The notes beneath the pieces were generated by a model that had not been told where the DNA came from, ran no database searches, and worked only from the letters and a program-made list of their open reading frames with translations. From Verrucomicrobiota bacterium (GTDB lineage: Bacteria > Verrucomicrobiota > Verrucomicrobiia > Palsa-1439), in assembly GCA_003152315.1 (NCBI GenBank), contig PLZV01000025.1, positions 62,001 to 126,000 of the forward strand: a DNA stretch of 64,000 bases, given 5' to 3'. Shown piece after piece: positions 23,844-31,796 of this stretch (positions are counted from its first letter, which is position 1; every line of letters starts with the position of its first letter). Position numbers and translations under genes: made by a program.

Positions 23844-24148
23844 TCTTCGTCGAACTTGCGCAGGAACAATGACTCCAACTCGCGCACCGCCGCTTCGGCG
23901 TCCGGTCCCTCGGCGGCGATGAGCAGTTTGGAGCCCTGGCCCGCGGCCAGCATCATCAATCCCATAATGCTCTTGCCGTTGACCTGCTCGCCATCTTTTT
24001 CGACGGTGATGTGACTGGCGAATTTATGGGCGGTTTTGACGAACAGCGCGGCGGGGCGCGCGTGAACGCCGAGCTTGTTGATCACGGTGACCTCTTTGCT
24101 CACCGTTTTGGCTTCCGAACCGCTGCTGCTCTTGCGTGAAAGATTCAT
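23840..24148 (-). CDS. ptsH: HPr phosphocarrier protein
   Basis: A 102-residue HPr with an extra 15-residue N-terminal extension. The phospho-accepting histidine is in KLGVHARPAA and the regulatory serine in NGKSIMGLMMLAA. The presence of that serine together with hprK nearby means HPr can be phosphorylated at two sites, by Enzyme I on histidine and by HprK on serine. It starts 24 bases after hprK and overlaps ptsI by four bases. Confidence 0.96.
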   Translation of the reverse strand: MNLSRKSSSGSEAKTVSKEVTVINKLGVHARPAALFVKTAHKFASHITVEKDGEQVNGKSIMGLMMLAAGQGSKLLIAAEGPDAEAAVRELESLFLRKFDEE

Positions 24149-24172
24149 GGACGGTTGTATTCCCGGTCAACT

Positions 24173-25123
24173 CTAGCGCGCGGTATGCATTCGCTCGATG
24201 AGCCGTTCGTTGAATTCGCGGGCCGCATTGTGGCCCAGGCTTTTCAGCTTTTGGTCCAGGGCCGCGACCTGAATCAACCGCGCGATGTCGCGCCCCGGAC
24301 GGACCGGGATGATCACGTGCGGCAGATCGATCCCCAGAACGGTGTACGACTGTCGCTCCAGGCCGGTGCGATCGACCTCTTCCATTTTGCTCCAATCCAT
24401 CAGCGTGACCACCAGGTTCAGGTTTTTCTCGGGACGCACGCTCGCAACGCCGAAGACCGCCGGCACATTGATGATGCCCAGCCCGCGGATTTCCATGTGG
24501 TAGCGCGTCGTCTCCGACGAGGTGCCCACCAACTCGCGGCCTTCAAACAGCCGAATGCGGGTGATGTCGTCGCTGACAAGGCTGTAGCCGCGCTCCAGCA
24601 ATGCCAGGACCGTCTCGCTCTTGCCGATGCCGCTCTCGCCACGAATCAGCACGCCAATGCCCAGAATGTCCACCATCGAACCGTGTTCGCTCACCTGCGG
24701 CGCAAACTCCATCTCCAGCGCAATGGTCGCCGCATTGATGAATTTCATCGTGACCATCTTGGTCTTGAACAGCGGCACCTGGTACTTGTCGCACTTCTCC
24801 TGCACGGGCAGGGGAGGGTTCACGTTGCGCGCGAAAACCAGGCAGGGGATCTTTGCCCGCAACATCCGCTCGATGCGCCTGGCGGCTTCCTCGTCGCCGA
24901 GGGATTTCAGGAACACCCATTCCGCGCCGCCAATCACCTGCACGCGTTTCATCGCGAAATAGCGGAAAAATTTCGCCAGCGCGAGACCGGGACGGTTCAC
25001 CGACCCTTCCTGGATTTTGCGGGAGAGCCCCGCGCCGCCCGCGATGAGCTTGAGCTGAAGCTTCTCCGCGTGATTCAGGTAGAAGCGCTCGACCGTGACG
25101 GTGGGGATGGAGGGTGTTGGCAT
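24173..25123 (-). CDS. hprK: HPr kinase/phosphorylase
   Basis: A bifunctional enzyme that phosphorylates and dephosphorylates the regulatory serine of HPr. The 316-residue length is typical. The P-loop GESGIGKS is at residues 162-169, and the HprK signature region GLGIINVPAVFGV is intact. It starts two bases after the hpf stop, so translation is probably coupled. In Gram-negatives with LPS, HprK often accompanies an incomplete phosphotransferase system used for regulation. It terminates in TAG. Confidence 0.96.
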   Translation of the reverse strand: MPTPSIPTVTVERFYLNHAEKLQLKLIAGGAGLSRKIQEGSVNRPGLALAKFFRYFAMKRVQVIGGAEWVFLKSLGDEEAARRIERMLRAKIPCLVFARNVNPPLPVQEKCDKYQVPLFKTKMVTMKFINAATIALEMEFAPQVSEHGSMVDILGIGVLIRGESGIGKSETVLALLERGYSLVSDDITRIRLFEGRELVGTSSETTRYHMEIRGLGIINVPAVFGVASVRPEKNLNLVVTLMDWSKMEEVDRTGLERQSYTVLGIDLPHVIIPVRPGRDIARLIQVAALDQKLKSLGHNAAREFNERLIERMHTAR

Positions 25124-25125
25124 GT

Positions 25126-25671
25126 TCAGGTCAGGGTGGGTTCGATGAGGCCGAAGTCGCCCTTCTTGCGGCGGTAGACCACGTTCACTTTTTCGGACTC
25201 GGCGTTCAGGAACACGAGGAACTGGGTCTCCGAAAGCTCCAGTTGCAGCACCGCTTCGTCCACGAACATCGGTTTGACCGCAAATTTCTCCGTGTGCACG
25301 AGTTGCGTGCGGCCTTCATCGTCGTGAAGATCGTAGGTCAACACTTGCTCATCGACGTGGTAAAGCGCGGCCTTGCGCGGGCGATGCCGCTGCATCTTCG
25401 TCTTGTACTTGCGCATCTGGCGCGTGGCCTTGTCCACCACGCGGTCGATGGAAGCGTACAAGTCCTCGCTCACCTCGCGTGCCTCAATAGTCAGATGGTT
25501 GCCGCACTGGAGCACGATTTCCGCGATATGGCGGAACTTGTCGACCTCCAGGATGTAGTGCGCGCTCAGGATCCGCGGGAAATCGATCCCGATATGGTCC
25601 AGTTTCTTCGCCGAGTACTCGCGTATCGACGGCGTGATGTCTATATGTCGCCCAGTCACTGTCACTTCCAT
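25126..25671 (-). CDS. hpf: Long-form ribosome hibernation promoting factor
   Basis: A 181-residue ribosome-binding protein. The N-terminal S30AE domain (VTVTGRHIDITPSIREYSAK) is followed by a linker and the C-terminal dimerisation domain (EKFAVKPMFVDEAVLQLELS, FLVFLNAESEKVNVVYRRKK). Long-form HPF drives 100S ribosome dimers without RMF. It lies between lptB (33 bases upstream) and hprK (two bases downstream). In Proteobacteria the equivalent cluster also has rpoN, which is absent here. Confidence 0.95.
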   Translation of the reverse strand: MEVTVTGRHIDITPSIREYSAKKLDHIGIDFPRILSAHYILEVDKFRHIAEIVLQCGNHLTIEAREVSEDLYASIDRVVDKATRQMRKYKTKMQRHRPRKAALYHVDEQVLTYDLHDDEGRTQLVHTEKFAVKPMFVDEAVLQLELSETQFLVFLNAESEKVNVVYRRKKGDFGLIEPTLT

Positions 25672-25704
25672 GGAACGTCCTCCGGTTTGCGCGGCCTGCC
25701 CAGC

Positions 25705-26448
25705 CTACATGCTGAAATCAGGCCCCAAGTAAATCTCCCGACTATGCGGGTCGTTAATTAAAAAATCGCTGGTGCCCTCGCGCACCACCTTGCCGTGAAC
25801 GATCAGGTACGCGCGATCCACAATCCGCAACGTCTCGCGAACGTTGTGATCGGTCAGCAGGATGCCCAGCCCCTTGCCCTTCAACCCGGCGATGATTTGC
25901 TGCACCTCGTGCACCGCTATCGGGTCCACGCCGCTGAACGGTTCGTCCAGCAGCATCAGCTTCGGCCCCGTGACCAACGCACGCGTGATCTCCAGCCGCC
26001 GCCGTTCGCCCCCGCTCAAGGTGTACGCCTTGTTCTTCGCCAGTGATTGAATATCCAATTCCTCCAGCAAATAATCCAGACGAAACTTCCGTTCCTCCAC
26101 GGTCAACGGCAGCGTCTCCAAAATCGCCAGGATGTTTTCCTCCACCGTCAACTTGCGGAAGACGCTCGCCTCCTGCGACAAATAGCCGATGCCGCGCCGC
26201 GCCCGTTTGTGCATCGGCATGCGCGTGACGTCCTTGCCGTCGAAGAACACCTTGCCCCCGTTCGGCTTGACCAGCCCGACCGTCATGTAAAACGACGTCG
26301 TCTTCCCCGCGCCGTTCGGCCCGAGCAGCCCGACAATCTCGCCGCTCTTGACGTTGATGTCGATGCCATCGACCACGCGCCGCCCGCCATAAATCTTGAC
26401 CAACCCCTGCGTGCGCAACAGGACGTTGTTGTCCGAAGCGTCACTCAT
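25705..26448 (-). CDS. lptB: LPS export ABC transporter ATPase
   Basis: The cytoplasmic ATPase that powers extraction of lipopolysaccharide from the inner membrane through LptFGC. The 247-residue length is standard. It has Walker A GPNGAGKT, Q-loop LSQEASVF, signature LSGGERRRLE and Walker B LMLLDEPFSGVDP. The ATG at 26448 has no ribosome site, and the promoter-like element at 26474-26501 would give a leader of only about 18 bases. It precedes hpf, hprK, ptsH and ptsI on the same strand. Confidence 0.96.
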   Translation of the reverse strand: MSDASDNNVLLRTQGLVKIYGGRRVVDGIDINVKSGEIVGLLGPNGAGKTTSFYMTVGLVKPNGGKVFFDGKDVTRMPMHKRARRGIGYLSQEASVFRKLTVEENILAILETLPLTVEERKFRLDYLLEELDIQSLAKNKAYTLSGGERRRLEITRALVTGPKLMLLDEPFSGVDPIAVHEVQQIIAGLKGKGLGILLTDHNVRETLRIVDRAYLIVHGKVVREGTSDFLINDPHSREIYLGPDFSM

Positions 26449-26473
26449 GAAATCGCCACCATCATTGTGACGC

Positions 26474-26501
26474 AGTGTAACAGAATCGCCCCCACTGACA
26501 A
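26474..26501 (-). promoter_or_regulatory. Promoter for lptB (TTGTCA-N16-TACACT)
   Basis: On the minus strand, TTGTCA (26501-26496), a 16-base spacer and TACACT (26479-26474) form a sigma70-type promoter 25 bases before the lptB ATG. The same boxes with the same spacing and spacer end (ATTCTGT) occur before kdsC-lptC at 28286-28313. That recurrence is the main evidence. Confidence 0.65.
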
Positions 26502-26667
26502 GTGCGGCAGAAGTATTTCCCGAAATCCGGTCGACCGGGCTCTACACCAGCCCGGCTCTGCATGTGCGTGGATAAGCTCTGGCCGAGAGCGTGCTACCGA
26601 AAAGACAAGAGATTTGATGGCTTGGCGGCTTGGGAAAGAGAACTTCGAAACGTTACGGGTCGAATCT

Positions 26668-27285
26668 TTACTCTTTCCCGTCCCCGCCGCCATTCTGCTT
26701 CCGTTGCTCTTCGGGGTAGATGAGCAGCTTGGTGCGGTTCGTTTCTCCCGGGTCGGCGACGACGTCCATCCGCTGTGAATCGCGCCAGAAGGTGATCTTT
26801 TTGCCGGTGACGACGCCGTCGGCAGATTCGGCGCGCGGGTGCCCGGTGAGCACGACCCGGCCGTCTTCTGCCGTGTATTCCGCGTGGTCGCTGTTGGACT
26901 TCTTGTTGTCCGGGGTGTTAATGACCACGCCGCCCTCGGCGATGATTTTCTGGATCGAGCGGGTCGTGTTCGTTCCGGTGCTCGTCACGACGTTCGTGCC
27001 GCCGAAGAAGACCGTCATCTTGTCGGCGCGCACCGTCATGCGCGGGTCAACCGCCAACACGTTCCCCTCGAACGTGCCGACGTTGTGCGCGTAGTCCCCA
27101 TGCAACTGCTCGCTGGTGATGATTGTCGGCTCATTCGTCGAACCCGCCGGGAGAGGGGATTTGGCTATTACCGGTGGCGGCGAAGTCGCCTCCGCCGCGG
27201 GTGTATCTCCCGCCGCAACGACCGACAGGGCACTCAGACCCGCCGTGATAACGACGGCCAGCAATGTAACAAGGAATCTTTTCAT
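26668..27285 (-). CDS. lptA: LptA/OstA-like periplasmic LPS transport protein
   Basis: A 205-residue periplasmic protein predicted to bridge LPS between membranes. A signal peptide (residues 1-25) is followed by a beta-jellyroll OstA-like domain (IITSEQLHGDYAHNVGTFEG, DPRMTVRADKMTVFFGG, IIAEGGVVINTPDNKKSNSD, GRVVLTGHPRAESADG). It overlaps the kdsC-lptC gene by four bases (ATGA), so translation is coupled. The C-terminus ends in a glutamine/glycine-rich tail (EEQRKQNGGGDGKE). A gap of 219 bases separates it from lptB. Confidence 0.9.
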   Translation of the reverse strand: MKRFLVTLLAVVITAGLSALSVVAAGDTPAAEATSPPPVIAKSPLPAGSTNEPTIITSEQLHGDYAHNVGTFEGNVLAVDPRMTVRADKMTVFFGGTNVVTSTGTNTTRSIQKIIAEGGVVINTPDNKKSNSDHAEYTAEDGRVVLTGHPRAESADGVVTGKKITFWRDSQRMDVVADPGETNRTKLLIYPEEQRKQNGGGDGKE

Positions 27286-28277
27286 GGCTGTTTCGGTGGC
27301 TCCCCAAAAATCTGTTGTCCGGTTGTAATAATGACACAGACGTTACTGCGAATCACCATCGAGGACGTGTCGCCGTTCCATTCCCCGCCGATGCCCGTCA
27401 ACACCATGTTCTCGCGGTCGATGCGCACATGGTCCTGCGTCGTGGCGTGGTTGTTGGCCCGGTCGAGCCGGCACGTCGGCGAACTGAAGACCATGTCCAA
27501 CTTGTTGGTCGTGTAGAACTCCGCGCGCGCGTTTTGAATGTCCATCATCCCATCCGGGCGAATCACCGCGCGCTCGCCGATGAGTTTCCACTTCAAATTA
27601 CCGTCTTCGTCGCGCTGCGGTACCTCGAATTTCTCGATGTAGCCCGAGTTGTCGGCCGGCTTCTTCACGGTCTCCGAGGACCGCTCCGCGCCGCTGTCCG
27701 CGAACATGCGCGTGCTAGCGAGAGTGAGTACGACCGCGAGCACCGCGACGTACTTGGCGATCGCCCGCTCCCATGAACCTTGCGCTTTCAAAATCATCTC
27801 AATCACTTCACGCACCGCGCCGTCGCCGCCCTGCCGTCGCGTTTGATAATGCGCCACGCGTTTGACCTCATCGGTTGCATTCGGCACCGCCACGGCCAGG
27901 CCCACGCGCCGGAGCACCGGCAAATCCACCAGCTCATCGCCGACGAACGCGATCTCGTCATTCGCAAATCCGTGCTGGCGCTTGACCTTCTCGACCATAT
28001 CCATCTTGTTTGACGGTTTTTGCAGCACAATGTTCACACGCAAATCCGCCGCGCGCCGCGCTGTTGCTTTCGAGGGCCTACCCGAGATGAAGCCAACGGT
28101 CAACCCGGCGCGCTGCGCCATGGCGATTCCGTGGCCATCCTGCACGTCGAATGTCTTGAACTCCTCCCCGTCACTCGTGAAATGCAATTTGCCATCCGTC
28201 AGCACACCGTCCACGTCCAGTAACAAGCAACGGATTTTTCGCAGCCGGCGCGTCAGCGCCCCTTTCGCGACTTTCAT
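27282..28277 (-). CDS. KdsC phosphatase fused to an LptC-like domain
   Basis: A 331-residue protein joining two LPS functions. Residues 1-170 are a HAD phosphatase of the KdsC type (LLLDVDGVLTDGKLHF, ISGRPS, VGDELVDLPVL), which makes free KDO from KDO-8-phosphate. A hydrophobic helix follows (AIAKYVAVLAVVLTLASTRM). The last 130 residues are a periplasmic LptC-like beta domain (FEVPQRDEDGNLKWKLIGER, AEFYTTNKLDMVFSSPTCRL). KdsC is normally soluble; here it would be anchored by the LptC helix. The ATG at 28277 (or the GTG before it) begins only 8 bases after a -10 box, so the mRNA may be leaderless. It is coupled to lptA. Confidence 0.85.
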   Translation of the reverse strand: MKVAKGALTRRLRKIRCLLLDVDGVLTDGKLHFTSDGEEFKTFDVQDGHGIAMAQRAGLTVGFISGRPSKATARRAADLRVNIVLQKPSNKMDMVEKVKRQHGFANDEIAFVGDELVDLPVLRRVGLAVAVPNATDEVKRVAHYQTRRQGGDGAVREVIEMILKAQGSWERAIAKYVAVLAVVLTLASTRMFADSGAERSSETVKKPADNSGYIEKFEVPQRDEDGNLKWKLIGERAVIRPDGMMDIQNARAEFYTTNKLDMVFSSPTCRLDRANNHATTQDHVRIDRENMVLTGIGGEWNGDTSSMVIRSNVCVIITTGQQIFGEPPKQP

Positions 28278-28285
28278 CACGCGCC

Positions 28286-28313
28286 AGTGTAACAGAATGC
28301 CCTCATCTGACAA
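28286..28313 (-). promoter_or_regulatory. Promoter for kdsC-lptC, probably giving a leaderless mRNA
   Basis: On the minus strand, TTGTCA (28313-28308), 16 bases, and TACACT (28291-28286) repeat the lptB promoter. Only eight bases separate the -10 box from the ATG at 28277, so transcription would start at or next to the start codon. No ribosome site can fit. Confidence 0.65.
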
Positions 28314-28445
28314 GCTCACCGCCAATGGCGCCACGCGTGGCGTGAATGCGGCCTATTGCAATTGCCTTGCGGTTTTTCTGTTTGTTGGCATGATAGCGTC
28401 GATCTGCTGAACGCAACCGAATCACATGACGGGAGGTACGGTTCG

Positions 28446-30158
28446 ATGAAAGCAACTTCACTCAGTAGTCTGCGGGTGCGTCTGGTTCTCCTGGTTCTTT
28501 TGGCGGTGATTCCCTCTCTGGGGTTGATTCTGTACACAGCCAGAGTGCAGCGCCAGGTCGCAACGGAAGCGGCTCATGACAACCTGTTGCGGGTCGCCAG
28601 CCTTACCGCCGCCGATGTCTCGCGAATGATCGAAGGCGCCAAGCAGCTTCTGGGCGGGTTGGCGCAGACGCGTGAGATCCGCAACGGCGAGCCCGCCGCC
28701 TGCGACACGGTCATGGCGAAGTTGCTGACGATCTACACATTCTATACGACGCTGGGCGTGGCATCACCCGAGGGCAAAGTCATTTGCAGTGCCGTGCCCC
28801 TGACCAATTCGGTCACGGTTACGGATCAAAGCTGGTTTCAGCAGGCGCTGCAAACCCGTGACTTCACCGTGGGCGAGAGTCAAATCGACCGGGTCACCGG
28901 CAAAGCCTCCATCGATTTCGCCTATCCGATCGAGGAATCCGGTCGCATCCAGTCGGTCGTGTTCGCGGCACTGAATCCGAAATTTCTGAGCGGCGTTAGC
29001 CTCGTGGTACTGCCCGAAGGCGCGTCACTGGTGGTTGTGGATCGGCAGGGGACCGTTCTGGCCTCTTCTCCTCCCACGCCGGCAATTCTCGGGCGGCCCG
29101 CGCCCGAATCTTCTCTGCTCAAGTCCGTCGCGACCTATCGCGGACGGGGAACCGGGGAGATTGCCGACGCCGACGGTATCAAGCGTATCTACGCGTTCTC
29201 CCCGATTGGCGGAAAACGGGGAAAGGCGGATGCTTACGTCAGCGTCAGCATCCCCACGGCCATCGCGCTGGCCGACGCAAACCGCCAACTGGTGGATAAT
29301 TTTCTCGGGCTGACCATCGTGTCACTGTTGGCTTTGGCCGCCGCGTGGTTTGGCGGTCATATGATCGTTCTGGGCAAGGCGAACGATGAACTCGAACAAC
29401 GCGTGCAGGAGCGCACCAAGGAACTGGCCCACGAGCAGTTGTTGCTGCGAATGCTCATGGACAACATCCCCGACACGATTTACTTCAAAGATACGCAGTC
29501 GCGGTTCATCCGTATCAATCGCGCCCAGGCCACGGTGCTGGGCGTGCCATCCCCCGAGCAGGCCATCGGCAAGAGCGACGCCGACTTTTTCACCGCGGAA
29601 CACGCCCAGGCAGCTCTCGCCGACGAGCGGCGGATCCTCGAATCGGGGCAGGGTTTGATCAGCAAGACGGAACGCATTCGCCACGCCGACGGGCAGTCCC
29701 GCTGGGTGACGGCGACCAAGGTGCCGGTGCGTGACGCACGTGACACGGTGGTCGGACTGGTCGGCATCAGCCGCGATGTGACCGAGCGCATGATGGCCGA
29801 TCATCTGTTGCCCATCCTGGTCGACAGCCTGCCCGATCTGGTCTACGTCATCGATACGCAGGGCCATTACGTGGTGGACAACGCGGCCCATCGCAACTTC
29901 CTCGGGGTGCGCACCATCGAGCAAATTGCCGGTAAGACCGCCTTCGATTTCTATCCACGTGAACTTGCGGAGCAGATTCGCACCGATGACCAGGCGGTCC
30001 TGGAGGCCAAAGTTCCCGTTCGGGACCGTAAAGAGCAGTTCACGAATCATCGCGGTGAAACAACCCCGGTCTCGACGAGCAAAGTTCCCTATCGAGACGA
30101 GCAAGGCAAGATCGCCGGCCTGGTCTGCGTCAGCCGCATCCTTGGCGACCGGAAATAG
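28446..30158 (+). CDS. Membrane sensor: extracytoplasmic Cache domain plus two PAS domains, no output domain
   Basis: A 570-residue inner-membrane sensor. Helix 1 (about residues 10-30) and helix 2 (about 290-310) flank a dCache-like periplasmic domain. A helical linker (NDELEQRVQERTKELAHEQ) leads to PAS 1 (NIPDTIYFKDTQSRFIRIN) and PAS 2 (SLPDLVYVIDTQGHYVVDNA). The protein stops right after PAS 2, with no kinase, GGDEF or other output. A close paralog at 59463-61201 has the same layout. The ATG at 28446 has GGGAGG about 10 bases upstream. It probably acts by pairing with another signalling protein. It ends in TAG. Confidence 0.9.
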   Translation: MKATSLSSLRVRLVLLVLLAVIPSLGLILYTARVQRQVATEAAHDNLLRVASLTAADVSRMIEGAKQLLGGLAQTREIRNGEPAACDTVMAKLLTIYTFYTTLGVASPEGKVICSAVPLTNSVTVTDQSWFQQALQTRDFTVGESQIDRVTGKASIDFAYPIEESGRIQSVVFAALNPKFLSGVSLVVLPEGASLVVVDRQGTVLASSPPTPAILGRPAPESSLLKSVATYRGRGTGEIADADGIKRIYAFSPIGGKRGKADAYVSVSIPTAIALADANRQLVDNFLGLTIVSLLALAAAWFGGHMIVLGKANDELEQRVQERTKELAHEQLLLRMLMDNIPDTIYFKDTQSRFIRINRAQATVLGVPSPEQAIGKSDADFFTAEHAQAALADERRILESGQGLISKTERIRHADGQSRWVTATKVPVRDARDTVVGLVGISRDVTERMMADHLLPILVDSLPDLVYVIDTQGHYVVDNAAHRNFLGVRTIEQIAGKTAFDFYPRELAEQIRTDDQAVLEAKVPVRDRKEQFTNHRGETTPVSTSKVPYRDEQGKIAGLVCVSRILGDRK

Positions 30159-30244
30159 CGGTAGTGAATGCGGCCAACGCTCGCGCGTTGCGTTGCAACG
30201 CCCGCCGGGTTGTTGTTGTGCCATCCGTGTTTCCAAAAAGAAAA

Positions 30245-30272
30245 ACCTCCCCCGTGGCTAGCCGGGGGAGGT
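30245..30272 (-). terminator. Rho-independent terminator downstream of the DegP gene
   Basis: A perfect 10-base stem (ACCTCCCCCG / CGGGGGAGGT) around an eight-base loop. On the minus strand it is followed by TTTTTCTTTTTG, a good U-tract. It lies 25 bases after the end of the protease gene. Confidence 0.85.
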
Positions 30273-30296
30273 CTTGCGACTGGAGAACAGCAAACT

Positions 30297-31796
30297 TTAT
30301 TTGGAGTCCTTCAGCACAACGAAAGTCGAAGTGCCGCCGCGCTGTACGTAAAGGAGTACGCCTTTTTCCGGGTCGATCTTGTCGATGGCGGCCTTGAAAT
30401 CTTCCGCCGAATGGACGGGCGCCCGGTCCATCTCGGTGATCACATCGCCACGTTGCAGGCCCCTCTGCTGCGCGGCGCTGCCGTCGGCGACATTGACCAC
30501 GACGACGCCTTCCGCATTTTCCAACTTCAACTGCTCGCCGAGTTCCTTGGTCAGGGTCTGCACGGTCAGGCCAAACACGCTTTCGGTTTTCGGTTTGTGC
30601 GGGTGTTCACGCGCCGCGTATTGGACCGCGTCGGGCATCTCGCCGGTCTGCAGGGCGACCTGAATGGTTTTACCACCGCGCACGACGTCGAGCATGACTT
30701 TCTGGCCGACTTCCTTGTGGAGAATTTGTCGCTGCAAGTCCCGTGGCGCCTTCACGGGCACGCCGTCGACGGCCACGATGATATCCGCCGGCTTGAGATT
30801 GCTCTTGGCGGCGGGTGTACCGGCGTGGATATCTCTCACGACCACGCCGTCCTTCACGGGCTTCGCCAATTCCGCCAGTTCCTTGTTATCGGAAAGCGCC
30901 TCAATGCCAATGCCGATCCACGGGCGCGTGACCTTGCCGTCCTTGATAAGTTTCTCGGCCGAATCCATCGCCACATTGATCGGGACGGCGAAGCCGATGC
31001 CGCGACTCAGGCCGCGGATCAGTGTATTGATGCCGATGACGCGGCCTTCAATATCGCAGAGTGGGCCGCCGGAATTACCGGGATTAATCGCCGCGTCCGT
31101 CTGGATGTAGTCGATGGTCGCCACAATCCCCGGATCTCCCATCGGTGGACGCCCCTTCGCGCTGACGAATCCGACCGTGAAGCTGTAGTCCAGTTCATAT
31201 GGCGCGCCGATCGCGATGGCCCATTGGCCAACCTTCACCTCATCGCTGTTGGCGAATTTGGCGACCGGCAAATCCTTCGCGTCCACCTTGATGACGGCGA
31301 TGTCGGTGTGATCGTCGGTGCCGATGACCTTGGCGTCCTTGTACTCGGTGCCGTCCTTGAGGTGGACGGTGATCGAGTCGGCGCCGTCAACGACGTGCTG
31401 GTTGGTGAGGATATAACCATCCTTGCGCAGGATGATACCGGAACCCTCTTTGTCAATGTTGCGCGGATGGCCCTGCGGCAGGTGCCGGAAGAAGAACTCG
31501 AACGGCGTGCCCTCGAACTGCGGGTTGTTTTCGCCGTCGTCACCCTCCGTCGATTCCACCGCGCCACCGATACTGCTGTGGCTCGTAATGACGACGACCG
31601 ATGGGCTCGCCTGGTCCGCGACCCGCTCGAACGCATTCTCCAAATGTCGCGCGAGATCGATATCACTGTTGGCCGTTGACGCTGGAGTGGCGGCCGCGTA
31701 GAGGGCAGGGCACGCAGCCGTCAGGAATACGGCCAGCCCGATGGTGAACCAGCGGTTCGTTTGCGATTTAGTAAAGTGAGTTGCCAATTTGTTCAT
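30297..31796 (-). CDS. degP: DegP/HtrA-like periplasmic serine protease
   Basis: A 499-residue envelope protease/chaperone. A signal peptide (residues 1-35, TIGLAVFLTAACPALYAAA) is followed by a trypsin-like domain with the triad H134 (TNQHVVDG), D165 (HTDIAVIK) and S242 (GNSGGPL), then two PDZ domains (about 290-380 and 405-495). The chosen ATG at 31796 begins the signal peptide, with GAAGAG upstream; longer readings to 32036 would run into the upstream intergenic DNA. It probably degrades misfolded envelope proteins. It ends at a strong terminator. Confidence 0.95.
   Translation of the reverse strand: MNKLATHFTKSQTNRWFTIGLAVFLTAACPALYAAATPASTANSDIDLARHLENAFERVADQASPSVVVITSHSSIGGAVESTEGDDGENNPQFEGTPFEFFFRHLPQGHPRNIDKEGSGIILRKDGYILTNQHVVDGADSITVHLKDGTEYKDAKVIGTDDHTDIAVIKVDAKDLPVAKFANSDEVKVGQWAIAIGAPYELDYSFTVGFVSAKGRPPMGDPGIVATIDYIQTDAAINPGNSGGPLCDIEGRVIGINTLIRGLSRGIGFAVPINVAMDSAEKLIKDGKVTRPWIGIGIEALSDNKELAELAKPVKDGVVVRDIHAGTPAAKSNLKPADIIVAVDGVPVKAPRDLQRQILHKEVGQKVMLDVVRGGKTIQVALQTGEMPDAVQYAAREHPHKPKTESVFGLTVQTLTKELGEQLKLENAEGVVVVNVADGSAAQQRGLQRGDVITEMDRAPVHSAEDFKAAIDKIDPEKGVLLYVQRGGTSTFVVLKDSK

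Follow-up and report, generated by a model that had tools for sequence, protein, structure and literature searches.

The kdsC-lptC Locus

The window (the whole analyzed stretch of 64,000 nucleotides, from a genome of Verrucomicrobiota) contains on its reverse strand a gene encoding both a KdsC phosphatase and LptC, followed by the genes lptA, lptB, hpf, hprK, ptsH, and ptsI. The main features are:

27282–28277, reverse strand: KdsC-LptC fusion gene, 331 aa in a single frame with no internal stop; scores above the thresholds of TIGR01670 and PF06835; likewise fused in 8 other genomes
27774–28277, reverse strand: KdsC (HAD phosphatase) part, aa 1–168, with the motifs DxDGVLTDG (D21/D23), SGR (65–67), K91, and GDxxxD (D114/D118)
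27711–27752, reverse strand: hydrophobic segment, aa 176–189 (YVAVLAVVLTLAST), 14 uncharged residues within the predicted helix 169–193; putative former LptC signal sequence, now an internal signal or an anchor
27645–27698, reverse strand: linker, aa 194–211, predicted to be disordered (low pLDDT); variable in the alignment, with raised dN/dS for aa 169–211
27285–27644, reverse strand: LptC beta-jellyroll, aa 212–331, recognized by PF06835 and by its predicted fold; best PDB matches LptC 6mit, 4b54, and 3my2
26668–27285, reverse strand: lptA; PF03968, 49.9 bits; TIGR03002, 64.1 bits, slightly under the cut-off of 71.7
25705–26448, reverse strand: lptB; TIGR04406, 348.5 bits, cut-off 240
28286–28313, reverse strand: promoter-like element TTGTCA-N16-TACACT, its -10 ending 8 nt ahead of the fusion ATG

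The fusion stop and the lptA start share four bases (27282–27285), which bears out the coupling to lptA proposed in the initial annotation. Where the contig is long enough, the operon surroundings are identical for family members with fused and with split genes. The fusion mRNA is predicted to be leaderless or nearly so, and an Rfam search of positions 24000–30500 gave no match.

A second, near-identical TTGTCA-N16-TACACT element (TGTTACACTG) is located ahead of lptB (26474–26501, reverse strand); the 10-mer of the promoter-like elements occurs in the window only at these two sites, against 0.02 expected. Most of the 11 family genomes, whether their genes are fused or split, have a related element at about this distance ahead of kdsC, but G391 and G392 do not. 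The gap between lptA and lptB (26449–26667) is 219 bp long in the window and about 750 bp in G397 (L122, 4366–5112); most of the family's other genera have no such gap, as the two genes touch or overlap. This added stretch varies among the genomes of the window's genus, save for the promoter region ahead of lptB. The divergent upstream gene (28446–30158, forward strand), PAS-like by eye, is a single open frame in the window. Its counterpart in G397 (L122, 7199–8719) matches as four separate frames, which suggests that the gene is broken there.

Two Domains in One Chain

The KdsC family is assigned by TIGR01670 (aa 15–167, 163.3 bits against an NCBIfam cut-off of 106.95), and the Pfam search places a HAD hydrolase and LptC within one chain. 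KdsC, also named YrbI, is the 3-deoxy-D-manno-octulosonate 8-phosphate phosphatase, and hydrolysis of KDO-8-phosphate takes place in the cytoplasm. In the alignment of the nine fused proteins the catalytic residues D21, D23, S65–R67, K91, D114, and D118 are invariant. The nearest solved structures to the N-terminal half by sequence are KdsC/YrbI phosphatases. Position 115 reads GDEL in all fused and in the two split members of the family, vs. GDDL in E. coli KdsC; judged from these sequences, GDEL is a trait of the family, independent of the fusion.

The LptC domain is recognized by PF06835 with 35.4 bits (gathering score 21), a score threshold also passed by six of seven other fused proteins. 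With the NCBIfam model TIGR04409 (LptC_YrbK) it reaches 31.7 bits, below the cut-off of 38. By TIGR04409 the window protein therefore falls short of an equivalog and counts as a divergent LptC; its identity as LptC comes from Pfam, fold and gene context. LptC passes LPS from LptB2FG on to LptA.

The whole chain, modeled by AlphaFold2 on a 60-row alignment, has a mean pLDDT of 91, and both the KdsC and the LptC folds are recognized in it. The HAD domain is followed by a single helix (aa 169–193), which runs unbroken from the KdsC tail through the hydrophobic segment, then by a region of low confidence (about 194–211) and by seven long strands (213–317). Foldseek comparison of the model with solved KdsC chains gives TM-scores by target of 0.86–0.96. 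The C-terminal half modeled alone (pLDDT 90) has LptC of E. cloacae and E. coli as its top matches, with a TM-score of 0.73 to LptC 3my2. Structure prediction of both halves, suggested in the initial annotation, therefore yields the two expected folds with high confidence and upholds its assignment of an LptC-like beta domain; that KdsC and LptC lie in one chain follows from the open frame and the two family scores. We infer the activity of either half.

Beyond the fusion, no other kdsC or lptC over the family cut-off or the gathering score was found in the draft genome (4.89 Mb, 96% complete, 62 contigs), which answers the question of separate copies raised in the initial annotation. The evidence that this genome lacks any further kdsC or lptC is strong, although not absolute in a draft of 62 contigs. 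Genes for KdsA and two LptF/LptG proteins are present, so that a KDO phosphatase and LptC should both be needed.

Distribution and Origin of the Fusion

The window's family, which makes up its whole order within the genome collection, comprises 11 genomes. The fused frame is present in nine of them, eight with a complete LptC part and one (G392) ended by the contig edge inside LptC; the fused relatives are 54–91% identical to the window protein. Only in G394 and G395 are kdsC and lptC separate; there the stop of kdsC shares four bases with the start of lptC (ATGA in G394, GTGA in G395).

Outside the family, the survey covered 388 sampled genomes from the phylum, 384 from the class, and some further loci. 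In the class sample every over-cut-off KdsC match with a frame of at least 300 aa was read, and for the phylum sample the long-frame matches listed were read as well. No LptC fusion occurs among the about 90 outside KdsC loci read, mostly of Verrucomicrobiota, so that the survey called for in the initial annotation found the same fusion within the family and in none of the loci read beyond it. In most of these loci lptC is recognized just downstream on the same strand, and in most KdsC ends about 11 aa past its last conserved stretch. Independent fusions elsewhere in the phylum or class were rejected as candidates: in the long-frame matches read, KdsC is C-terminal and no in-frame LptC comes after it.

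Other frames containing KdsC were met in the survey. One of a Desulfomonile MAG (L015, 4095–5525) joins a DAHP/KDO8P-synthase domain to KdsC, and another (L045, 1468–2769) a cytidylyltransferase to a KdsC-like phosphatase. In L067–L070, KdsC lies in frames of 409–476 aa whose N-terminal residues, about 250–320 in number, have no Pfam match; the real start may lie further downstream, in which case these extensions would be a fortuitous open frame.

Could the single frame be an error of assembly or sequencing that joined two genes? The separate genes in two of the 11 genomes might be taken to favor such an artifact. However, nine genomes carry the fused frame, eight of them complete, in relatives as distant as 54–91% identity, and both halves are under purifying selection, which makes an artifact exceedingly improbable. 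A base error or frameshift, named in the initial annotation as what would undo the fusion if relatives had separate genes, is rejected by the nine fused genomes; only G394 and G395 are split.

Selection was estimated by the Nei-Gojobori method for four pairs. The dN/dS values, approximate because some pairs are far apart at synonymous sites, are 0.06–0.13 for KdsC, 0.05–0.22 for LptC and 0.26–0.53 for the joint (aa 169–211). They point to purifying selection on both halves, with a joint that is far less constrained; in the alignment of fused relatives the linker (aa 194–211) also varies more than any other part of the chain.

In the fused genes the kdsC stop is gone, no internal start is conserved, and AIAKYL at the end of KdsC runs straight into the hydrophobic stretch. 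The ancestor would have had kdsC and lptC head to tail with a four-base overlap. A small change at the overlap would then have removed the kdsC stop together with the lptC start and joined ...AIAKY to the hydrophobic core of the LptC export signal. With an AU p of 0.118, the data do not reject one origin for the fusion; in the best tree, with the base of the group unresolved, two changes are required. Single origin is therefore compatible with the data, but not proven. Taken together, the KdsC-LptC fusion is genuine and specific to this lineage, two neighboring genes of an operon having become one read-through frame.

A separate LptC might still be made by translation initiation inside the fused frame, and the junction in G397 has a Met codon (KYMALL). 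A junction start codon is, however, not conserved, the window having no ATG there (TAC GTC GCG GTG), and an LptC started at this point would lack the positively charged n-region. We regard internal initiation as improbable.

The Joining Segment: Signal or Anchor

The order of the chain suits both functions, with KdsC inside and LptC outside, and the fate of the protein depends on the segment between them. The membrane helix described in the initial annotation corresponds to a hydrophobic stretch that is indeed present, but short, and that could be an anchor or a signal peptide. In all fused members the uncharged run is 12–17 residues long (median 14). Its hydropathy over 19 residues is 1.35–2.18 in the fused proteins and 1.57 in the window, compared to 2.53 for the E. 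coli LptC helix and 1.91 for the E. coli LptA signal.

Signs of processing differ among the relatives. In genus g200 a lipobox closes the 12-residue run (LLGC in G388, MVGC in G389), suggesting that these two proteins are processed as lipoproteins. In G390–G393 a V-x-A or A-x-A motif occupies the usual place. In the window's genus cleavage is doubtful because Met or Leu stands at -3 of the likeliest cleavage site and Arg follows the hydrophobic core. A small-x-Ala motif is found in all nine fused members, but 67% would have it by chance, and four control membrane spans gave two; the motif is thus too common by chance to decide on cleavage. The unfused LptCs of the phylum mostly open with sequences resembling cleavable signal peptides.

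These features allow the following scheme. The KdsC part would fold in the cytoplasm as the KDO-8-phosphate phosphatase of the cell. The internal signal, its positive n-region now provided by the KdsC tail, would insert with N-in/C-out topology, and the jellyroll would thereby reach the periplasm and act as LptC between LptB2FG and LptA. Signal peptidase I, or the lipoprotein signal peptidase in g200, would then cut the internal signal. The chain would thus be a precursor for two compartments, from which KdsC and LptC arise in fixed 1:1 synthesis, a reading to which we give about even chances. It is favored because the unfused LptCs of the phylum mostly have a signal-like beginning, the segment is short and less hydrophobic than the E. 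coli LptC helix, and a lipobox or V-x-A/A-x-A occurs in relatives. Against cutting, signal peptides behind a folded cytoplasmic domain of 170 residues are unusual, and helix 169–193 fits an uncut anchor.

The same continuous predicted helix argues for a permanent tether, in which the uncut N-in/C-out anchor would hold KdsC on the cytoplasmic face of LptB2FG-LptC and KDO would be made at the export site. The unusual residues at the likeliest cleavage site of the window's genus also fit it, as does the bitopic nature of E. coli LptC, whose helix packs between LptF and LptG (PMC9972910). The shortness and weak hydrophobicity of the segment and the lipobox in two members speak against a tether, and where LptC is unfused in the phylum, it has the look of a protein secreted by means of a cleavable signal, not of an anchored one. 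The stoichiometry would be awkward as well: KdsC forms tetramers but each exporter takes a single LptC, and a tethered KdsC oligomer would hold several LptC copies. Nor is a gain from channeling obvious, KDO-8-phosphate hydrolysis being several steps ahead of export-ready LPS. We consider a tether somewhat short of an even bet, and cutting is held to be slightly likelier. That an uncut chain links the KDO enzyme with the exporter's periplasmic arm, uniting synthesis and export in one trans-membrane assembly, is a tentative proposal, rated lower again. Of the suggestion in the initial annotation that the fusion places KDO production at the site of LPS export, the fusion, both folds and the lptA coupling stand, whereas KdsC and LptC would come apart if the chain were cut at its internal signal.

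If the precursor is cut, the gain is a fixed co-production of KdsC and LptC; if it is uncut, KdsC is kept at the exporter. The fusion is a natural experiment on whether LptC can accommodate a large domain on the cytoplasmic side, and it bears on the need for the LptC membrane helix outside Proteobacteria and on folded N-terminal domains preceding a cut signal peptide. The 9:2 division into fused and unfused genes inside one family offers matched orthologues.

Comparison With Known Systems

No description of a KdsC-LptC fusion was found in the literature searched, whose coverage was partial. The architecture is new, while both components, the gene order and the overlap are already well known. 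E. coli K-12 has the order kdsC-lptC-lptA-lptB and the four-base kdsC/lptC overlap of the split relatives, but its genes are separate.

The KdsC/YrbI phosphatases of E. coli (2r8e) and P. syringae (3mn1) have the whole HAD domain, the motifs and the C-terminal AQG... tail in common with the fusion, with roughly 32–45% identity for such KdsC structures and an rmsd to the model of mostly 1.2–1.6 Å. Known KdsC ends shortly past this tail, which in the fusion continues into the LptC signal. LptC/YrbK of E. coli (3my2, 4b54) and LptC of the E. cloacae LptB2FGC complex (6mit) share the beta-jellyroll and a gene near lptA/lptB with the fusion; identity to the solved LptC is, however, only 12%. E. coli LptC begins with a strong N-terminal membrane helix, in place of which the fusion has a hydrophobic segment that is shorter and follows a complete KdsC.

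The fbcH gene of Bradyrhizobium japonicum encodes a cytochrome b/c1 precursor, two envelope proteins in one gene, with an internal signal that is cut. The KdsC-LptC fusion resembles it as one gene for two proteins joined at an internal signal, but the proteins are different, and in the fusion the cutting is inferred.
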